Notes under the pieces: model-generated | What the model was told of the DNA's origin: nothing | Database searches by the model: none | What the model saw: the letters and a program-made list of their open reading frames with translations, nothing else | Part shown: positions 51,148 to 58,977 of the stretch, piece by piece | Layout of the letters: each line of letters begins with the position of its first letter | Numbering within the stretch: position 1 is the first letter of the stretch | Position numbers and translations under genes: made by a program | NCBI RefSeq assembly: GCF_910589745.1 | Contig: NZ_OU342399.1 | Location: 310,001 to 374,000 of the forward strand | Length of the DNA: 64,000 bases | Direction: 5' to 3' | Source of the DNA: Candidatus Arcticimaribacter forsetii | GTDB lineage: Bacteria > Bacteroidota > Bacteroidia > Flavobacteriales > Flavobacteriaceae

Positions 51148-53418
51148 CTATGATTCTATTTTACGAATATTATCTAAGAACGTTTCCATAATATTTAACT
51201 TATTAAGATATAAATCTTTAGATTTCAAAAGAATATTGAAGTATAAAGTCGTGTTTTTTGGACTTGTTTCTTCGTTTCTAGTAAGCTCTATTTGATTATT
51301 AATCTTTTCATTAAGTTGCTTAAGAATCGTTTCACGGTTCTCTAGTACTAAGTTAATTTTAGCAACAGAATTATTACTATAAGCCTCCATAGCCTCCTCA
51401 AAAATAGAATTAGTAAGCTCGTTAACATTTTGTAAATCTCTAACCTGGCTCAACTTTAATTTAGAGTGGTCATTATTAACATGTTTGTAACTCTTTTTTA
51501 CGATATAACTGAGGTCATCTGTAATGTCTTGCATAAGACTTAAAATTACAATGTAGAAATTACTCGCGGATAAACTAGATTCTTCAAGATTTTTAATGAA
51601 GTAGAAAACATTCTCTCTTAGTTGTTCAACATCATCCGTAAGTCTACTAATGTTTTTCTTAGCCTTTTTAAGTGTTTTTTGATCATGTTTTGCTAAACCG
51701 TCTGAAAGTATAGCGTAAATTTTATCCACACGCTTAAACACCTTAATAACGTTTTTAGTACTCTCCTCCATAACTCCTTTAATAGAGTTACTTTCAGATT
51801 TAACTAAGCCATCAAAATCAAGGTCTGCATTATCATTTTTGTGTTTAACATAGTTCTTACCAATTATTAATAAGATTATGAAAAGAATGATTGCTATTGC
51901 CTGCGGCCCACCTAACTTAATAAGCGTTACGATTATACCCGACACAATAAAAGCAGTCAATGCAGTTAAGAACCATCCTCCAATTACATTAATCATACCA
52001 GCTACTCTGTAAACAGCACTATCTCTTTGCCAAGCTCTATCGGCTAATGAGGTACCCATAGCAACCATAAAGGTCACATAAGTAGTTGATAGTGGTAATT
52101 TGTATGAAGTTGCTACAGATATTAAAATAGATGCAACCACTAAATTAATACATGCTCTGAGCATATCAAAAGAAGGTGCGTCCTTCGCATTTTGGTTTTT
52201 TATCACCAACTCTGTATTTGAAAATTGTGTGTCAATTTTTTCTATAACACTAGCAGGTAGTATCGCATTGATACCAGTCCCAATAACTTGGAATGTTTTT
52301 ACAATTCCTTTAGAAAGGAAATTTGGTTGAAAGCGTTCTTTGATAGAATTCTGATCAGATAAGTCTAATTCCGTTTTCATTACTTTTTTAGCTTTCGTAG
52401 AAAGCCATAAAGTTAAAACCATTACCCCTCCTGAAAGAATTAATAAAAGAGTAGGTGTTGGTACTTTGGAAGACAAGACACCCATACTAAAATCAGTAGC
52501 AGCAACTCCAGAAGCAACCCATGCCTCGTAGGACTGGTAGGCTGCGATAGGAACACCAATAAAGTTTACAAGGTCGTTACCAGCAAATGCTAATGCTAAT
52601 GCAAAAGTTCCAGTTCCAATAATTACTTTATAGATATTTGCTTTAACAAATTTAATTAGAGCAAAAGATACTCCAAACCACACTAAAAAGTTTGCTAAAA
52701 CCACTTTAAACACTTCTTTTTCAAGAAGGTCTTTAATTTTCATCCCACCTAATAAATCGTATTTTACGTTTGCAAAAGGAGTTCCTTTGATACCTTTCAT
52801 TAAGATGAAGTATGTAATTGCAGAAAGTGCAATACCACCGAAAAGTGCACTAACCCACATTGCTTTTTTCTCAAACTCATAGGTTAAGAATAGTCTAGAA
52901 AACCACTGAACTATTGCTCCAACAGTAAGTGCAACAACTACGGAGAGTAAAATACCCGAAATAATTTGAATTGCTTTTTTAGTGTTTATGTAGTTTACAA
53001 TGTCTCCAAAATCTCCAGAGCTTTCACTAATTTTAATGATAGACATAAATACAGCAGCTCCTAATAAAGTAAATACAATAGATACTGTTGTTGAGGTTGG
53101 CATCCCAAGCGTATTAAAAAAGTCTAAAAGCAAAATGTCTGTTAGCATTACTGCAGTGAAGATTAAAATAATCTCATCGAAGTAAAACTCACCTGGATTA
53201 AAAATTCCTTTTCGTGCAACCTCCATCAGACCGCTTGAAAACAAAGCACCAGCAGCAACTCCAAGAGAGGCTAAAATCATAATTGTTTTAAAAGGAATAG
53301 CTTTAGACCCTACTGCAGAATTCAAGAAATTTACAGCGTCATTACTAACCCCTACGATAAGGTCACCGATTGCTAGTACAGCAAGAACAGAAACCAGTAT
53401 TAAATAAATATTATCCAT
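51148..53418 (-). CDS. Inorganic phosphate transporter (Pit) with C-terminal PhoU-like domain
   Basis: A 756-aa protein. Residues about 1-540 hold the PHO4/Pit permease with two homologous blocks (GVSNDAVNFLNSAVGSKA near 23-40 and a second GNDLVNFIGVPIAAYQS near 278), giving about 10-12 membrane helices. Residues about 545-756 are hydrophilic and helical, with the pattern of a PhoU-like/DUF47 domain, so sensing or control may be built into the transporter. It would import phosphate with H+ or Na+. It follows the porin gene after 10 bp and shares its promoter with the Pho-box-like array. Confidence 0.93.
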   Translation of the reverse strand: MDNIYLILVSVLAVLAIGDLIVGVSNDAVNFLNSAVGSKAIPFKTIMILASLGVAAGALFSSGLMEVARKGIFNPGEFYFDEIILIFTAVMLTDILLLDFFNTLGMPTSTTVSIVFTLLGAAVFMSIIKISESSGDFGDIVNYINTKKAIQIISGILLSVVVALTVGAIVQWFSRLFLTYEFEKKAMWVSALFGGIALSAITYFILMKGIKGTPFANVKYDLLGGMKIKDLLEKEVFKVVLANFLVWFGVSFALIKFVKANIYKVIIGTGTFALALAFAGNDLVNFIGVPIAAYQSYEAWVASGVAATDFSMGVLSSKVPTPTLLLILSGGVMVLTLWLSTKAKKVMKTELDLSDQNSIKERFQPNFLSKGIVKTFQVIGTGINAILPASVIEKIDTQFSNTELVIKNQNAKDAPSFDMLRACINLVVASILISVATSYKLPLSTTYVTFMVAMGTSLADRAWQRDSAVYRVAGMINVIGGWFLTALTAFIVSGIIVTLIKLGGPQAIAIILFIILLIIGKNYVKHKNDNADLDFDGLVKSESNSIKGVMEESTKNVIKVFKRVDKIYAILSDGLAKHDQKTLKKAKKNISRLTDDVEQLRENVFYFIKNLEESSLSASNFYIVILSLMQDITDDLSYIVKKSYKHVNNDHSKLKLSQVRDLQNVNELTNSIFEEAMEAYSNNSVAKINLVLENRETILKQLNEKINNQIELTRNEETSPKNTTLYFNILLKSKDLYLNKLNIMETFLDNIRKIES

Positions 53419-53428
53419 AGTTTATTTT

Positions 53429-54625
53429 TTAGAAGTGAATATCAAATTGTAAACGGTATACTAATTTATTGCTTGAAGATACTGAATCTTCATAAGTAAG
53501 ATCCGTTTGAACTTTTAATTTATGTTTAGCAACATACTTAGACAATCCAATAGTGTATTGTGTGATTTTATTGTTAGAAGAAACAATAGAGTCAAAGTTT
53601 ACATTTGTGTATCGTCCTGTAATAGCTAAATTAGAAGGAGTAACATAACCCATTTGAATGTTTGTTGAATTCCCGATGTTAACAACATCACCCGTTAGGC
53701 TGTTATCTTCATTTTTTGCAATTGGATCATCAGCATCACGATCTGCGTATTCCGCCATTAAAGAGAAACCTCTGTATTTAAAGTGGGTGTCAAAAAACAG
53801 GGTATTAATATCTGTTTGATAAAAACCTTCGTTAGTTTCAAGGTAAGAACCCATGTTACTTCTAGATTTAACTGCGTTATTATTTACATCATAAACAACT
53901 CCAACTAAAAGCTTGGGAGTTTGTTCGCGATCTAAATCAGCTCCTTTATAGTCCCCTTTGCTTTTAAACTTACCAAAAGGAAGAACTTCAATACGACTTG
54001 TGTACTGGTGTCCACCTAAGTTTCCTTTTGTAATGTTTCTACCTTCCCCTTGAGAAATAGCAAAAATTTCTTTTACTATAAAGTTCTCCGATAATTTAAA
54101 GTGGTGACGGAATTGAATTCCTAAATCACGGTCAATATTAAATTTACTATTTAAAAGAGAACGATCTACCAAAGCTAAATTTCCTGAAGAAATTACACGC
54201 TCAATGTTACCAGGTAATTTACCTTGACCTGCCTGAAGTGTAAAGTTCTTGTAGAAATTCCAACGGATATAGGCATCAAGAATATAACGAGGTGCATTAC
54301 TTGTAAAAGCAGAAGCCCCAGAAATATCTCTATTAGATAATCCTAACTCTAGTTTGTAAGTAAGTTTTGGATTGTATGCAAAACCACTAAATTTTAAACG
54401 AGAACGTCTAACTAAAAAGTTAGATTCACGATTTTCAAAATCACCTTCAGACCAACTTGTAGCACTAAGATATTGCATTCTTGCACTAAAGTTCATGTAA
54501 AAGGTACTGTCTTTCCCAGTAATATTTAGTAATCCTTTACCAAATTTTGAAGTTGTTACTTCCTGAGCAAATGTAGATGTAATCGTTAATAATAAGAGTA
54601 CGGTTACTTTTTTGATAGCTTTCAT
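53429..54625 (-). CDS. Phosphate-selective porin (OprP/OprO-like)
   Basis: A 398-aa outer-membrane barrel with a signal peptide (MKAIKKVTVLLLLTITSTFAQ). The alternating strand pattern, YKLELGLSNRDI, RSRLKFSGFAYNPKL and the last strand ending YRLQFDIHF fit the OprO/OprP (Porin_O_P) family used for phosphate or polyphosphate entry. I start at ATG 54625, which gives a clean signal; an in-frame TTG at 54649 is less likely. The pit gene follows 10 bp downstream, and an 11-bp repeat array with a -7 box lies directly upstream. Confidence 0.9.
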   Translation of the reverse strand: MKAIKKVTVLLLLTITSTFAQEVTTSKFGKGLLNITGKDSTFYMNFSARMQYLSATSWSEGDFENRESNFLVRRSRLKFSGFAYNPKLTYKLELGLSNRDISGASAFTSNAPRYILDAYIRWNFYKNFTLQAGQGKLPGNIERVISSGNLALVDRSLLNSKFNIDRDLGIQFRHHFKLSENFIVKEIFAISQGEGRNITKGNLGGHQYTSRIEVLPFGKFKSKGDYKGADLDREQTPKLLVGVVYDVNNNAVKSRSNMGSYLETNEGFYQTDINTLFFDTHFKYRGFSLMAEYADRDADDPIAKNEDNSLTGDVVNIGNSTNIQMGYVTPSNLAITGRYTNVNFDSIVSSNNKITQYTIGLSKYVAKHKLKVQTDLTYEDSVSSSNKLVYRLQFDIHF

Positions 54626-54646: not shown

Positions 54647-54654
54647 CAAAAATC
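54647..54654 (-). promoter_or_regulatory. -7-like box of the porin-pit operon (GATTTTTG)
   Basis: On the minus strand GATTTTTG matches TAnnTTTG at 5 of its 6 fixed positions. It lies 21 nt upstream of the porin ATG and exactly 15 bp downstream of the repeat array at 54670-54691. Confidence 0.5.
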
Positions 54655-54669
54655 TTAATTAATTATGAC

Positions 54670-54691
54670 TCTAATGTTAACTTAATGTTAT
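54670..54691 (-). promoter_or_regulatory. Pho-box-like 11-bp direct repeat upstream of the porin-pit operon
   Basis: On the minus strand two 11-mers, ATAACATTAAG and TTAACATTAGA, follow each other head to tail and share 8 of 11 bases. The 11-bp period and TTAACA core are those of PhoB/PhoP-family operators. The array ends 15 bp before the -7-like box, replacing a -33 element. Confidence 0.6.
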
Positions 54692-54713: not shown

Positions 54714-57524
54714 CTAGAATTTCAAGCTGTAACTTAAACTAACGGATCTACCGACTTTATATAGAGAAAACAATCTTTGTTCCTCACCATAGTAATCGTA
54801 ATAACTCTCTTTATAATCACCTAATATATTCTGAATTTTGAATATTATGGTTTGATTTTTAGTTTCCCCTAATTTTTTGGTTATGACAACGTTTAAGTTA
54901 TTAAAGGGGTCTGTGTAAACATCAGGAATGTTTCCAACTCCAACAACTTCAAGAGTTTTTCCTTGAACATTGTAAAACAATCCATATTCTATGTTTTTTT
55001 TAATTTCAGAATAAGTTAATCCTGCGTTAATTATGAATGGAGATTGCCCTTGAAGCACTCTATTTTTACTAATTGAACGATTGGGTTCAGTTAAAATTCT
55101 ACCTTGATATTCCGAGTCACTCATTTTTTGTTCGGAGTAAATTAAAGAAGAGTTTATATTAATTGAGAGCTTTTTTGCGTCAGTTTTCAAAACATTTTTC
55201 CGGTATTCTAATTCCAACCCAACGACTTTTGCTTGAGTGTTGTTTCTTCCGATTAGTTGATTTGGGGAATTTAACCCTAATGCAACTATTTCTATTGGAT
55301 CTTTAAAATTTTTATAAAAACCACTTAAAGCATAAAATTCATTTTCTTCACCATATTTTTCAAACCTTAAATCTAAATTATTAATATAGCTTGGTTTTAG
55401 TTCAGGATTACCAATGAAGTATCTTTCTGTAATAGGATCAAAAATTTGAGCCGATGAGTTCTCCTTAAAACTAGGACGGGCAGTAGTTCTGGAATATGAT
55501 AAACGAAGATTAGTCTGTTCACTTAGAGAATTAATGATATTAATTGAAGGAAAAAAATCTTTAACATCAATTAATTTAGAATTATCATAAACTATTTGAT
55601 CGATTGTTTCTCCAGTATAAGTCATGTTGTAGTTTTCAAATCTTATGCCAAAAGTAGATTTCCACTTTTCAGAGAGTTTTAATTCTGCTGATAGAAACGC
55701 AGCAATGTTTTTACTTTCGGCATCATATTGATTTGTTCTTTGATAACTCCCTATAACATAAGAACCTCTATTATTTTGTGCAGTCCATAGATTAGAAGGA
55801 TTCAAAAGATTATCAGGGTTACCTAATAATTCTTCACTTCGTCCAATAAAATCTATAGCGTAATTAGATGTTCTAAAACTTCTGTCTTTTGAAGAAAAAG
55901 TGACTCCAGTATTTATTTTTCCTTTAATCTTTCCATCCTCTATTTTATGAGTATACTGAATCTTACTTGCGATAGCATCCTCTTTTAATGTTCTCCAAAG
56001 TCTTTGTGGTAGTTGTGTTGTAGAGGGAGAAATTGTAAAATAAGAACGATTTGAATCTGTTTCAAAAACAGTCTTCTTGAAATCTTTATCAAATACTTCA
56101 GCAAAAGAAGGCGCCACTTTCCATTCAATAATAGATTTTCCTTCTCTTAAAATATGCTTCGCACTTAAAGGAATAGATATAATATTTCGTTCTGTGTATG
56201 TTAAAATATTTGCTACCCCGATGTATGGATTTTCTAAGTAATCTGCATATTGGGCAAAAATAGCATTAGACTCTGCACTTCTTAAGTTTAATAAATTTAG
56301 CTTGTATTTGGAGTTTTTTGTTTTCAATGATATCCCTAGGAGCGCACTTGCTAGTTTTTTTATAACCCCCAATTCCCCTCTTTGAGAAGTGTTATTTTCT
56401 AAGCCAGAAGTTTCTTTTGCAATAGTTCCTGTTTGATAGTCATTAAAGTAATCTGTGTCAGATCGGAAACCTAGAGCTGCAATATATCCAATTTTTGTTT
56501 CATTTTTCATTTCAAACTGATTAGACGCTGTAGCTCCTATACTAAAATCACCTCCACTTCGGTATCTATTTACAGCCATTTGTTGTTCAAATAAGCCAGT
56601 AATTTTGTTAAGTACTCCTGAGTATCCCAAAGCATTTTGTTCTGGAAGAGGAATTACTTGTTCCGCTCCAATAGGTCGATCGAAGTATCCATTGTTGAAT
56701 CCCAAGAAATTTAACCCGTTCGGATTATTTCTGATTGCTTGATCAACAAAATTCATGTCTGGATTGTAGCTTCCAGACACAGAAAAACTATATTGGGGTA
56801 AGTTCGAGAAATCTTTTAGAATTATGTTTACAATTCCCCCACTGAAATCAGCATTTAAATCCGCACTTGCAGACTTATTAATGATAATATTATCGAGAAT
56901 GTTGGTTGGAAATACATCTAATTGCAAAGTGTTTTTGTCAGGATCTAATCCCGGGATTTCAAGCCCTCCCAAAAGTGTTTTCGAGTATCTATCACCTAAG
57001 CCTCTAACGTATACAAACTTTCCATCCTGAACCGACACTCCTGGTACTCGCTTTATTGCTGAAGCTAAGTTACTGTCTCCCGTTTTTTTTATTGCTTGTG
57101 AGGATAGTCCATCAATTAAATTGATTGATTTCTTTTGAATTAATAAAACTGCAACTTCAGAATTTTTTCGTTGTGTAGTAGTTACTACAACTTCTTCAAG
57201 TGAATTCGCCAAAGGACTCAAATAAACTTCTACTTCATATTCTTTAACATCTGTAATTTGAATTCCTGTTATTTCTTTCGTTTCATAACCTACAAAAGAA
57301 ATTTCTAACGAATATTCTCCATTGACTACATAGAATCGAAAAGCTCCGTCAAAATCAGAAATTGTTCCTTCAATTAAACTGTTATCAGAGTTGTTTTTTA
57401 GAATAATATTTGCAAAAGGGAGTACGTCGTTAAATTCAGTATCAATTATCTTACCTGTAATTATTGTTTGTGAAAAACTAAAACTTGTAATTAAAATTAG
57501 AAGTATTGAGAGTGTTTTTTTCAT
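54714..57524 (-). CDS. TonB-dependent receptor, phosphate-linked
   Basis: A 936-aa outer-membrane receptor. Signal peptide about 1-19 (SFSFSQ), a carboxypeptidase-regulatory-like domain at about 20-105, then a plug domain (IKRVPGVSVQDGKFVYVRGLG at about 160, followed by FSGGIVNI) and a 22-strand-type barrel to a C-terminus ending SLSYSLKF. The substrate is unknown. It lies between the beta-helix lipoprotein (75 bp upstream) and the porin-pit operon, all on the same strand. A near-consensus -7 box (TATATTTA, 57529-57536) sits 4 nt before its ATG, so it may also have its own leaderless promoter. Confidence 0.92.
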   Translation of the reverse strand: MKKTLSILLILITSFSFSQTIITGKIIDTEFNDVLPFANIILKNNSDNSLIEGTISDFDGAFRFYVVNGEYSLEISFVGYETKEITGIQITDVKEYEVEVYLSPLANSLEEVVVTTTQRKNSEVAVLLIQKKSINLIDGLSSQAIKKTGDSNLASAIKRVPGVSVQDGKFVYVRGLGDRYSKTLLGGLEIPGLDPDKNTLQLDVFPTNILDNIIINKSASADLNADFSGGIVNIILKDFSNLPQYSFSVSGSYNPDMNFVDQAIRNNPNGLNFLGFNNGYFDRPIGAEQVIPLPEQNALGYSGVLNKITGLFEQQMAVNRYRSGGDFSIGATASNQFEMKNETKIGYIAALGFRSDTDYFNDYQTGTIAKETSGLENNTSQRGELGVIKKLASALLGISLKTKNSKYKLNLLNLRSAESNAIFAQYADYLENPYIGVANILTYTERNIISIPLSAKHILREGKSIIEWKVAPSFAEVFDKDFKKTVFETDSNRSYFTISPSTTQLPQRLWRTLKEDAIASKIQYTHKIEDGKIKGKINTGVTFSSKDRSFRTSNYAIDFIGRSEELLGNPDNLLNPSNLWTAQNNRGSYVIGSYQRTNQYDAESKNIAAFLSAELKLSEKWKSTFGIRFENYNMTYTGETIDQIVYDNSKLIDVKDFFPSINIINSLSEQTNLRLSYSRTTARPSFKENSSAQIFDPITERYFIGNPELKPSYINNLDLRFEKYGEENEFYALSGFYKNFKDPIEIVALGLNSPNQLIGRNNTQAKVVGLELEYRKNVLKTDAKKLSININSSLIYSEQKMSDSEYQGRILTEPNRSISKNRVLQGQSPFIINAGLTYSEIKKNIEYGLFYNVQGKTLEVVGVGNIPDVYTDPFNNLNVVITKKLGETKNQTIIFKIQNILGDYKESYYDYYGEEQRLFSLYKVGRSVSLSYSLKF

Positions 57525-57528
57525 GTAA

Positions 57529-57536
57529 TAAATATA
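57529..57536 (-). promoter_or_regulatory. -7-like box before the TonB receptor (TATATTTA)
   Basis: On the minus strand TATATTTA matches TAnnTTTG except the last base and ends 4 nt before the ATG at 57524. The same 4-nt distance is seen for glyS and the DUF3109 gene. Confidence 0.4.
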
Positions 57537-57548
57537 TATTAGGTAAAT

Positions 57549-57566
57549 TCAAATCATATGATTTGA
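57549..57566. promoter_or_regulatory. 18-bp perfect palindrome before the TonB receptor
   Basis: TCAAATCAT and ATGATTTGA form an uninterrupted 18-bp palindrome centred about 33 bp upstream of the receptor ATG, just upstream of its -7-like box. A T-run lies on its plus-strand side only, so for the minus-strand genes it does not look like a terminator. It may be an operator. Confidence 0.5.
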
Positions 57567-57599
57567 TTTTTTTGTAAAAAATTATGTTTTATTAATTCA

Positions 57600-58883
57600 C
57601 TAATACTGTAAAGCAGACCACAGAGTCCAAGAAAACAAAGATTCGTCTGCACCGGTATTTTCAATTTGTGTAGTTGATAATCGAGCCCAGTCAGCGTAAT
57701 CAGTTATTGATGTGTTAACAAATATTTCATCTAAAGTTGACGTGGTGATAAAATAAAATTCATTAAAGTTAAGGTTATCTGAGCTTTTTTCAGTCGCAAC
57801 ACCTCCATAAGTATCAGTGTCGATTCCCTTGATAATAAGACCATCAATATTCTTATATACAACATTATTAGTTAAACCAGTAGCATCACTTTTCCAGTCC
57901 CCTAAATTATTCTTTCCAGATTCAGGCGAAGCATTTCCATAAACAGTTGCATTGTTAATAGTAAACGAGCCTCCAATTACTCCTGTACTGTCTTCTGTTC
58001 CATCTATTTCAAAAGGGTTGTCAGAATTCGAACGCATCTGAATCAAAACATTAGTAATAGACCCTCTATATCCTTCATCTATATCGATAGCATCATCTCT
58101 TTGGTTTAAAATTAATATGTCGGTAAGTACAGCTGCACCCCCAAAAATTTCAACTCCATCATCATTACTTCCAACTACTTCGATATTATTGAGGTCAGTT
58201 CCAGAACCAACTCCACCTAGAGTGAGACCTTGAATCTCATCACCTCCAGCTAACTGTGTTCCACTGTGACGTATAGAAACGTAAGAAATAGAGCCAGAAG
58301 AATCCGAGTCATTATCTCCGCCGTAACTTGTCCAATCAAAACCTTCAGCAATTCCTTCAATATCATCACGACCACCGTCTTCACCAACAATTGCATTTCC
58401 AAGAACGATAATTCCACCCCATTTACCTGTATCTGTCGATTCACGATTTGGGCTAATAACCCCATCACCGTATGAAATGCTGTCTTCGATGTCAGTAAAT
58501 ATGATTGGAGCATCAGAAGTACCAACAGCATTAATTGTAGCCCCAGCAGCTATAACTAAAGCAGTAGCATTTACTCCCTGACCGTTTTGAGCCTTAACAA
58601 TTGTCCCTGGTTCTATTGTGAGAGATGCACCTGAACGTACCACAATTTTACCATTCATTATCCATATACGATCATTTGACCAAGTTTGAGAGTCATCAAT
58701 ATAAGAAATACCTCCTGAGCCCACAGTTTCTGTATCTGGAGTTGGAATAGCTGTTGTTACAGTTACAGTTTCTGACACAATCACAGTTTCAATAATAGTC
58801 TCTGGATCAGAACTACAAGAAATTAGCGACGAAATAAACATTACTAGAGTTAAAATGCTAAATTTGTTTAGAAAGTTTTTCAT
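57600..58883 (-). CDS. Beta-helix lipoprotein paired with the TonB receptor (unknown function)
   Basis: A 427-aa predicted lipoprotein: hydrophobic signal and lipobox place lipidated Cys at 23 (SLISCSSDP). A Thr/Val/Glu-rich linker (about 29-52) leads to repeated beta-strand turns (ASLTIEPGTIVKA, GATINAVGTSDAPI, GGVGSGTDLNNI, NDDGVEIFGGAA), as in right-handed parallel beta-helix proteins. Many Asp/Gly turns (GGDNDSDSSG, DAIDIDEGY) could bind Ca2+ or a polar ligand. It is the first gene of the lipoprotein-receptor pair and is preceded by a strong 11-bp repeat array with an exact -7 box. It may be a surface partner of the receptor. No enzymatic motif is seen. Confidence 0.82.
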   Translation of the reverse strand: MKNFLNKFSILTLVMFISSLISCSSDPETIIETVIVSETVTVTTAIPTPDTETVGSGGISYIDDSQTWSNDRIWIMNGKIVVRSGASLTIEPGTIVKAQNGQGVNATALVIAAGATINAVGTSDAPIIFTDIEDSISYGDGVISPNRESTDTGKWGGIIVLGNAIVGEDGGRDDIEGIAEGFDWTSYGGDNDSDSSGSISYVSIRHSGTQLAGGDEIQGLTLGGVGSGTDLNNIEVVGSNDDGVEIFGGAAVLTDILILNQRDDAIDIDEGYRGSITNVLIQMRSNSDNPFEIDGTEDSTGVIGGSFTINNATVYGNASPESGKNNLGDWKSDATGLTNNVVYKNIDGLIIKGIDTDTYGGVATEKSSDNLNFNEFYFITTSTLDEIFVNTSITDYADWARLSTTQIENTGADESLFSWTLWSALQY

Positions 58884-58910: not shown

Positions 58911-58918
58911 CAAACATA
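58911..58918 (-). promoter_or_regulatory. -7 promoter box of the lipoprotein-TonB receptor genes (TATGTTTG)
   Basis: On the minus strand TATGTTTG is an exact TAnnTTTG match, 27 nt upstream of the lipoprotein ATG. The repeat array at 58934-58977 ends 15 bp upstream of it. Confidence 0.65.
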
Positions 58919-58933
58919 TTTTGAATTCAGCAA

Positions 58934-58977
58934 CTTCATGTTAACGGAATATTATCAAAATGTAACTAAACCGTTAA
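58934..58977 (-). promoter_or_regulatory. Pho-box-like array, four 11-bp units
   Basis: On the minus strand the 44 bp split into TTAACGGTTTA, GTTACATTTTG, ATAATATTCCG and TTAACATGAAG. Units 1 and 4 begin with TTAAC exactly 33 bp apart; units 2 and 3 are degenerate (GTTAC, ATAAT). Period, core and position replace the -33 element, as PhoB/PhoP operators do. The divergent dGTPase gene begins 76 bp away on the other side. Confidence 0.6.

Follow-up and report, generated by a model that had tools for sequence, protein, structure and literature searches.

In E. coli and Bacillus subtilis, the PhoB and PhoP boxes consist of 11-bp direct repeats that lie before phosphate genes in the −35 position. 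Two such 11-bp units make up one head-to-tail dimer site for an OmpR-family protein such as PhoB, and the core of the Bacillus PhoP box, TTAACA, is nearly identical to the repeat described here. When the literature was searched for a Bacteroidetes Pho box, no defined operator sequence was found apart from the PhoP motif of Riemerella anatipestifer. That motif was obtained by DAP-seq, has TTTAACA as its most conserved letters and was confirmed by EMSA (PMC9603813). In B. fragilis the pstC promoter is a binding target of PhoB, with no sequence motif defined in the accessible part of the study (PMC3547664). In F. johnsoniae, the TonB-dependent receptor Fjoh_0545 and the lipoprotein FII (Fjoh_0546), which lie beside phoBR, are raised by log2 8.0 and 9.9 on Pi depletion, and FI and its receptor by log2 14.5 and 12.5 (PMC8115612). 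The words Pho box and promoter are absent from that study, which also reports that plant-associated Bacteroidetes lack PstSABC (PMC8115612). The pairing of a lipoprotein with a TonB receptor recurs in other bacteria, as in Caulobacter, where ElpS (Cc0171) is an extracellular lipoprotein of phosphate starvation with a TonB receptor partner (PMC2996285).

The window analyzed here is a stretch of 64,000 nucleotides (G000:C1:310001-374000) from a 2.03-Mb single-contig flavobacterial genome, for which the lipoprotein points to Candidatus Arcticimaribacter bins as the nearest named relatives. Since this genome is estimated to be 91% complete, absences from it are taken with caution. The features of the locus are as follows.

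58934 to 58977, minus strand: Pho-box array of four 11-bp direct repeats, TTAACGGTTTA GTTACATTTTG ATAATATTCCG TTAACATGAAG (from sequence, matrix and scan)
58919 to 58933, minus strand: eroded fifth unit TTGCTGAATTC (58933-58923) and constant 4-bp spacer AAAA (from phase comparison with relatives)
58911 to 58918, minus strand: TATGTTTG, which fits TAnnTTTG, the −7 box of Bacteroidetes (from sequence, matrix and shuffles)
57600 to 58883, minus strand: surface lipoprotein, 427 aa, lipobox LISC, predicted to be all-beta and of the parallel beta-helix type
54714 to 57524, minus strand: TonB-dependent receptor with a CarboxypepD_reg N-terminal domain
54659 to 54691, minus strand: second array, before the porin, ATAACATTAAG TTAACATTAGA GTCATAATTAA (from model and pattern scans)
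54647 to 54654, minus strand: GATTTTTG, box resembling the −7 element and phased as in the first array (from sequence and pattern scan)
53429 to 54625, minus strand: phosphate-selective porin O/P (Porin_O_P), ATG at 54625
51148 to 53418, minus strand: Pit-type phosphate transporter (PHO4) with a C-terminal PhoU-like region
51211 to 51423, minus strand: the PhoU-like region of Pit, a weak match below cut-off and the only PhoU match in the genome

The first-pass annotation had divided 44 bp of the minus strand into four 11-mers, the outer two starting with TTAAC 33 bp apart, and had placed an exact TAnnTTTG 15 bp past them. Both were seen, at 58977-58934 and 58918-58911, respectively. A divergent dGTPase gene lies upstream of the array, and on its other side about 28 bp lead from the −7 box to the lipoprotein ATG (58883). 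The 15 bp between the fourth unit and the −7 box, TTGCTGAATTCAAAA on the minus strand, are equal to one eroded unit plus 4 bp, so the phase of the array to the −7 box is the same as in relatives. An inverted repeat in the array, TTAACGG...CCGTTAA, was rejected as the operative feature because it is absent from a same-genus genome. The bare pattern TTAAC-N28-TTAAC is not rare, with 3 occurrences in the window versus 0.56 expected; of the three, a single one precedes a gene. Requiring four units that together match TTAAC at 16 or more of 20 positions, with a phased TAnnTTTG after them, left one site in the window and none in 40 dinucleotide shuffles.

The lipoprotein is present in 245 of 301 family genomes, and in the upstream regions of 29 orthologues the 11-bp period was the only one above background (15.2 versus 12.0-12.8 for periods 7-10 and 12-16). 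Alignment of the promoter across related Flavobacteriaceae found the repeats conserved across the family, with the promoters of the best 30 genomes aligning ungapped. A 78-position matrix built from 69 promoters gave six units of nTAACnnnnnn, a 4-bp spacer and TTTCTTTG/TAnnTTTG. This model, called R1, was trained on lipoprotein-first genomes only and with the own genus left out. It scored more than 50 bits in 36 relatives, 17.5 for the own promoter and 22.7 for the same-genus promoter, against a maximum of 5.0 over 400 shuffles. In the parent design, as many as six 11-bp units precede a −7 box of the TAnnTTTG type, with 4+11k bp between the last unit and the box. Outside the own clade the last repeat lies 18 bp from TTTG, and within it (Arcticimaribacter and other small marine genomes) the distance is mostly 29 or 40 bp, shifts of whole 11-bp turns. 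Judged from these alignments, the flavobacterial family has retained the array as a genuine control element in its DNA, and the copy studied here is a partly eroded version of a full design of six units.

The phase of the repeats was also examined copy by copy. In lipoprotein promoters the distance from TAAC to TTTG is 7 mod 11 in 170 of 200 TAAC copies, and the same phase is seen in porin (12 of 16) and Pit (29 of 39) promoter copies, neither of which took part in setting it. The dGTPase promoters, used as a control, had a flat phase distribution, and those of the receptor had a weak excess. Pairs of the form [AT]AAC-N7-TAAC were found in 50 of 69 lipoprotein promoters (shuffle mean 2.5), 8 of 8 porin promoters (0.2) and 17 of 26 Pit promoters (0.7). 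A further 20 genomes (L236-L255) have the receptor gene first and the lipoprotein gene second, and these swapped-order loci were not used to train R1. The model placed the array before the receptor in all 20, with 52 of 61 TAAC copies in phase; since the array stands before whichever gene is first, it goes with the pair's promoter rather than with either gene.

A scan of the own genome with R1 ranked the lipoprotein array first (E 0.012) and a stretch before the porin, 54690-54651 on the minus strand, second (E 0.023); other matches were weaker, mostly inside genes, and were taken as noise. The second array reads ATAACATTAAG TTAACATTAGA GTCATAATTAA TTAA GATTTTTG, with 29 bp from the last full repeat to TTTG, just as in the first array. 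It was proposed that the first array heads a gene run ending in the porin and Pit. The run itself holds, but its porin-Pit end has an array of its own, so the idea of a single operon with one operator had to be given up. The Pit gene of the own genome has no array of its own.

The exact pattern TAACATTN4TAACATT, found once in the own genome, at the porin, gave 40 matches over 25 genomes versus 8 for a reversed control. Matches lacking a phased TTTG were not counted; those with one precede the own porin, five Pit genes and one receptor-like gene, and two further matches, with TTTG at 40 bp, precede a gene of unknown function. In six relatives, R1 matches outside lipoprotein promoters included one at the porin promoter of L181 and, in L180 and L183, one at a small CarboxypepD-like gene that heads the porin-Pit cluster. 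Six further matches in relatives fell in lipoprotein promoters; most of these belong to the training set, and no weight was given to the six. Across these scans, other phosphate genes, porin and Pit, are preceded by matching arrays.

Several smaller observations belong beside these scans. A second array is seen in relatives at L180 1500-1600, L183 1500-1600, L241 4412-4489 and L254 4124-4200, and in the first two it precedes a CarboxypepD_reg-like gene of ~130 aa that has the dGTPase gene on one side and the porin-Pit genes on the other. Near position 1500 of L210, a phased TAACATT pair lies before an unrelated Oar/TonB-receptor-like gene, which is a candidate for a further Pho gene. TAACATT pairs also lie before a conserved gene of ~180 aa and unknown function in L214, L223 and L224.

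A Pho box has tandem direct repeats with an 11-bp period, a fixed helical phase to the core promoter in the −33/−35 zone and a place before several phosphate genes. All three were found here, the last at the own porin-Pit genes and at Pit and porin promoters of relatives, and the array is a variant of the Pho box and not a new class of element. The reading as a Pho operator that was first proposed for this DNA is supported by conservation, by phase, by the arrays before porin and Pit and by the phoB-phoR genes that adjoin the lipoprotein-receptor pair in many relatives. We infer PhoB as the binder, activation as the effect and low phosphate as the signal, and on the sequence evidence the array is very probably an operator through which PhoB activates the pair under phosphate starvation. 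Phosphorylated PhoB would then bind head-to-tail on one face of the DNA, with one dimer for every two 11-bp units and three dimers for six units. With its phase to the −7 box constant, the array suggests that a PhoB subunit touches RNA polymerase in place of the −33 element; the last bound subunit would recruit the polymerase at TAnnTTTG and so switch on the lipoprotein and TonB receptor genes. The second, shorter array may act likewise for the porin and Pit.

Several results count against the PhoB reading. The array copy studied here has decayed, with 17 bits and an E of 0.012 over the whole genome. The own phoB promoter has no array match in the R1 scan of the genome, and the PhoB candidate (G000:C1 ~215.5 kb, followed by a PhoR-like kinase), whose best match is Bacteroidetes PhoB, scores 207.8 versus an NCBIfam equivalog cut-off of 270. 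In addition, oprP is not induced in F. johnsoniae (PMC8115612). The PhoR-like kinase and the RprY-like regulator also fall below their equivalog cut-offs.

With that sub-threshold PhoB score, the operator might instead belong to a different member of the OmpR family (RprY, say, or a protein like ArcA), in which case the signal would not be phosphate. Direct repeats of about 11 bp (TTAA-type) are common among these proteins, and the Riemerella PhoP motif is ArcA-like according to its authors (PMC9603813). We consider this unlikely, however, as no more than two OmpR-type DNA-binding response regulators are encoded in the own genome, one PhoB-like and one RprY-like. Among 98 related loci, each of at least 9 kb around the lipoprotein-receptor pair, 25 contain PhoB and none RprY, and the remaining array-bearing genes are phosphate genes. 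It is more doubtful still that PhoB acts here as a repressor, or that the array is an autoregulatory site of phoB that has travelled with the pair. Some loci do have the array between the pair and a divergent phoB, but it is kept where phoB is elsewhere and is found upstream of whichever gene of the pair is first, in fixed phase to its −7 box. The F. johnsoniae homologues are, moreover, strongly induced (PMC8115612). A chance product of AT-rich sequence, for which one could cite the TTAAC pairs 33 bp apart elsewhere in the window and the imperfect own copy, has a negligible probability and is already refuted by the shuffles, the conservation, the phase and the independent loci.

Taking the array as a PhoB operator, its likeness to the boxes of E. 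coli and Bacillus ends at several points. The array has up to six units (three dimer sites), the 4+11k rule ties it to the TAnnTTTG −7 box of Bacteroidetes, and the genome has no Pst genes for it to control. The PHO regulon of F. johnsoniae shares the pairing of a lipoprotein with a TonB receptor and the lack of PstSABC, with FI-FIII compared by description (PMC8115612); there the pair adjoins phoBR, whereas here it sits with the porin and Pit, away from phoBR. Riemerella PhoP is likewise a flavobacterial regulator with a TTTAACA core, a likeness by motif letters; unlike here, PhoPR is linked to virulence and aerotolerance in the accessible part of the report, and its motif is compared with that of ArcA (PMC9603813). 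Caulobacter ElpS resembles the lipoprotein by description and differs in being exported by type II secretion (PMC2996285). Bacteroidota Pi-starvation regulons have been measured before, and the 78-position model with its phase rule supplies the operator sequence. The model predicts phosphate-controlled genes from sequence alone, including those of uncultured marine flavobacteria, and the operator links a widespread lipoprotein-receptor pair to phosphate.

No PstS over the curated cut-off was found in the own genome or in 29 relatives, while 13 of 14 control genomes were positive, and the weak PstS match that the own genome gave is a regulator of the LysR type. With no PstS, pstS promoters could not be used as a positive control. 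This raises the question of how PhoR senses phosphate without Pst and free PhoU, and the C-terminus of Pit is possibly a fused phosphate sensor. As a tentative proposal, which we regard as possible rather than probable, the Pho circuit of Flavobacteriaceae may work with neither Pst nor free PhoU. In this circuit the Pit-fused PhoU-like domain would report phosphate flux to PhoR, and PhoB would act through a three-dimer operator phased to TAnnTTTG and so drive the lipoprotein-receptor pair, which would capture some phosphorus compound at the cell surface.

The lipoprotein has no Pfam match, and a PDB sequence search with its profile found nothing. Its AlphaFold2 model is all-beta (pLDDT 86, pTM 0.85), with PDB fold matches to the parallel beta-helices of pectate lyases, polygalacturonases and tailspikes, all of them weak (best E 0.006). 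A lipoprotein with a lipobox and a beta-helix-type fold and a TonB receptor as its partner, the two marks of the ElpS/FI-FIII type, are both found here, the fold matches being weak. The pair would be expected to capture a phosphorus source at the cell surface. In L044-L081 the stretch that separates the lipoprotein gene from the receptor gene holds a conserved hairpin, for example GCTCGCC...GGCGAGC, which is weak in the window (57525-57599); perhaps it lowers expression of the receptor relative to the lipoprotein. Finally, two lipoprotein copies are fused in one frame of ~800 aa in eight genomes (G030, G238, G011, G306, G311, G313, G316 and G318).
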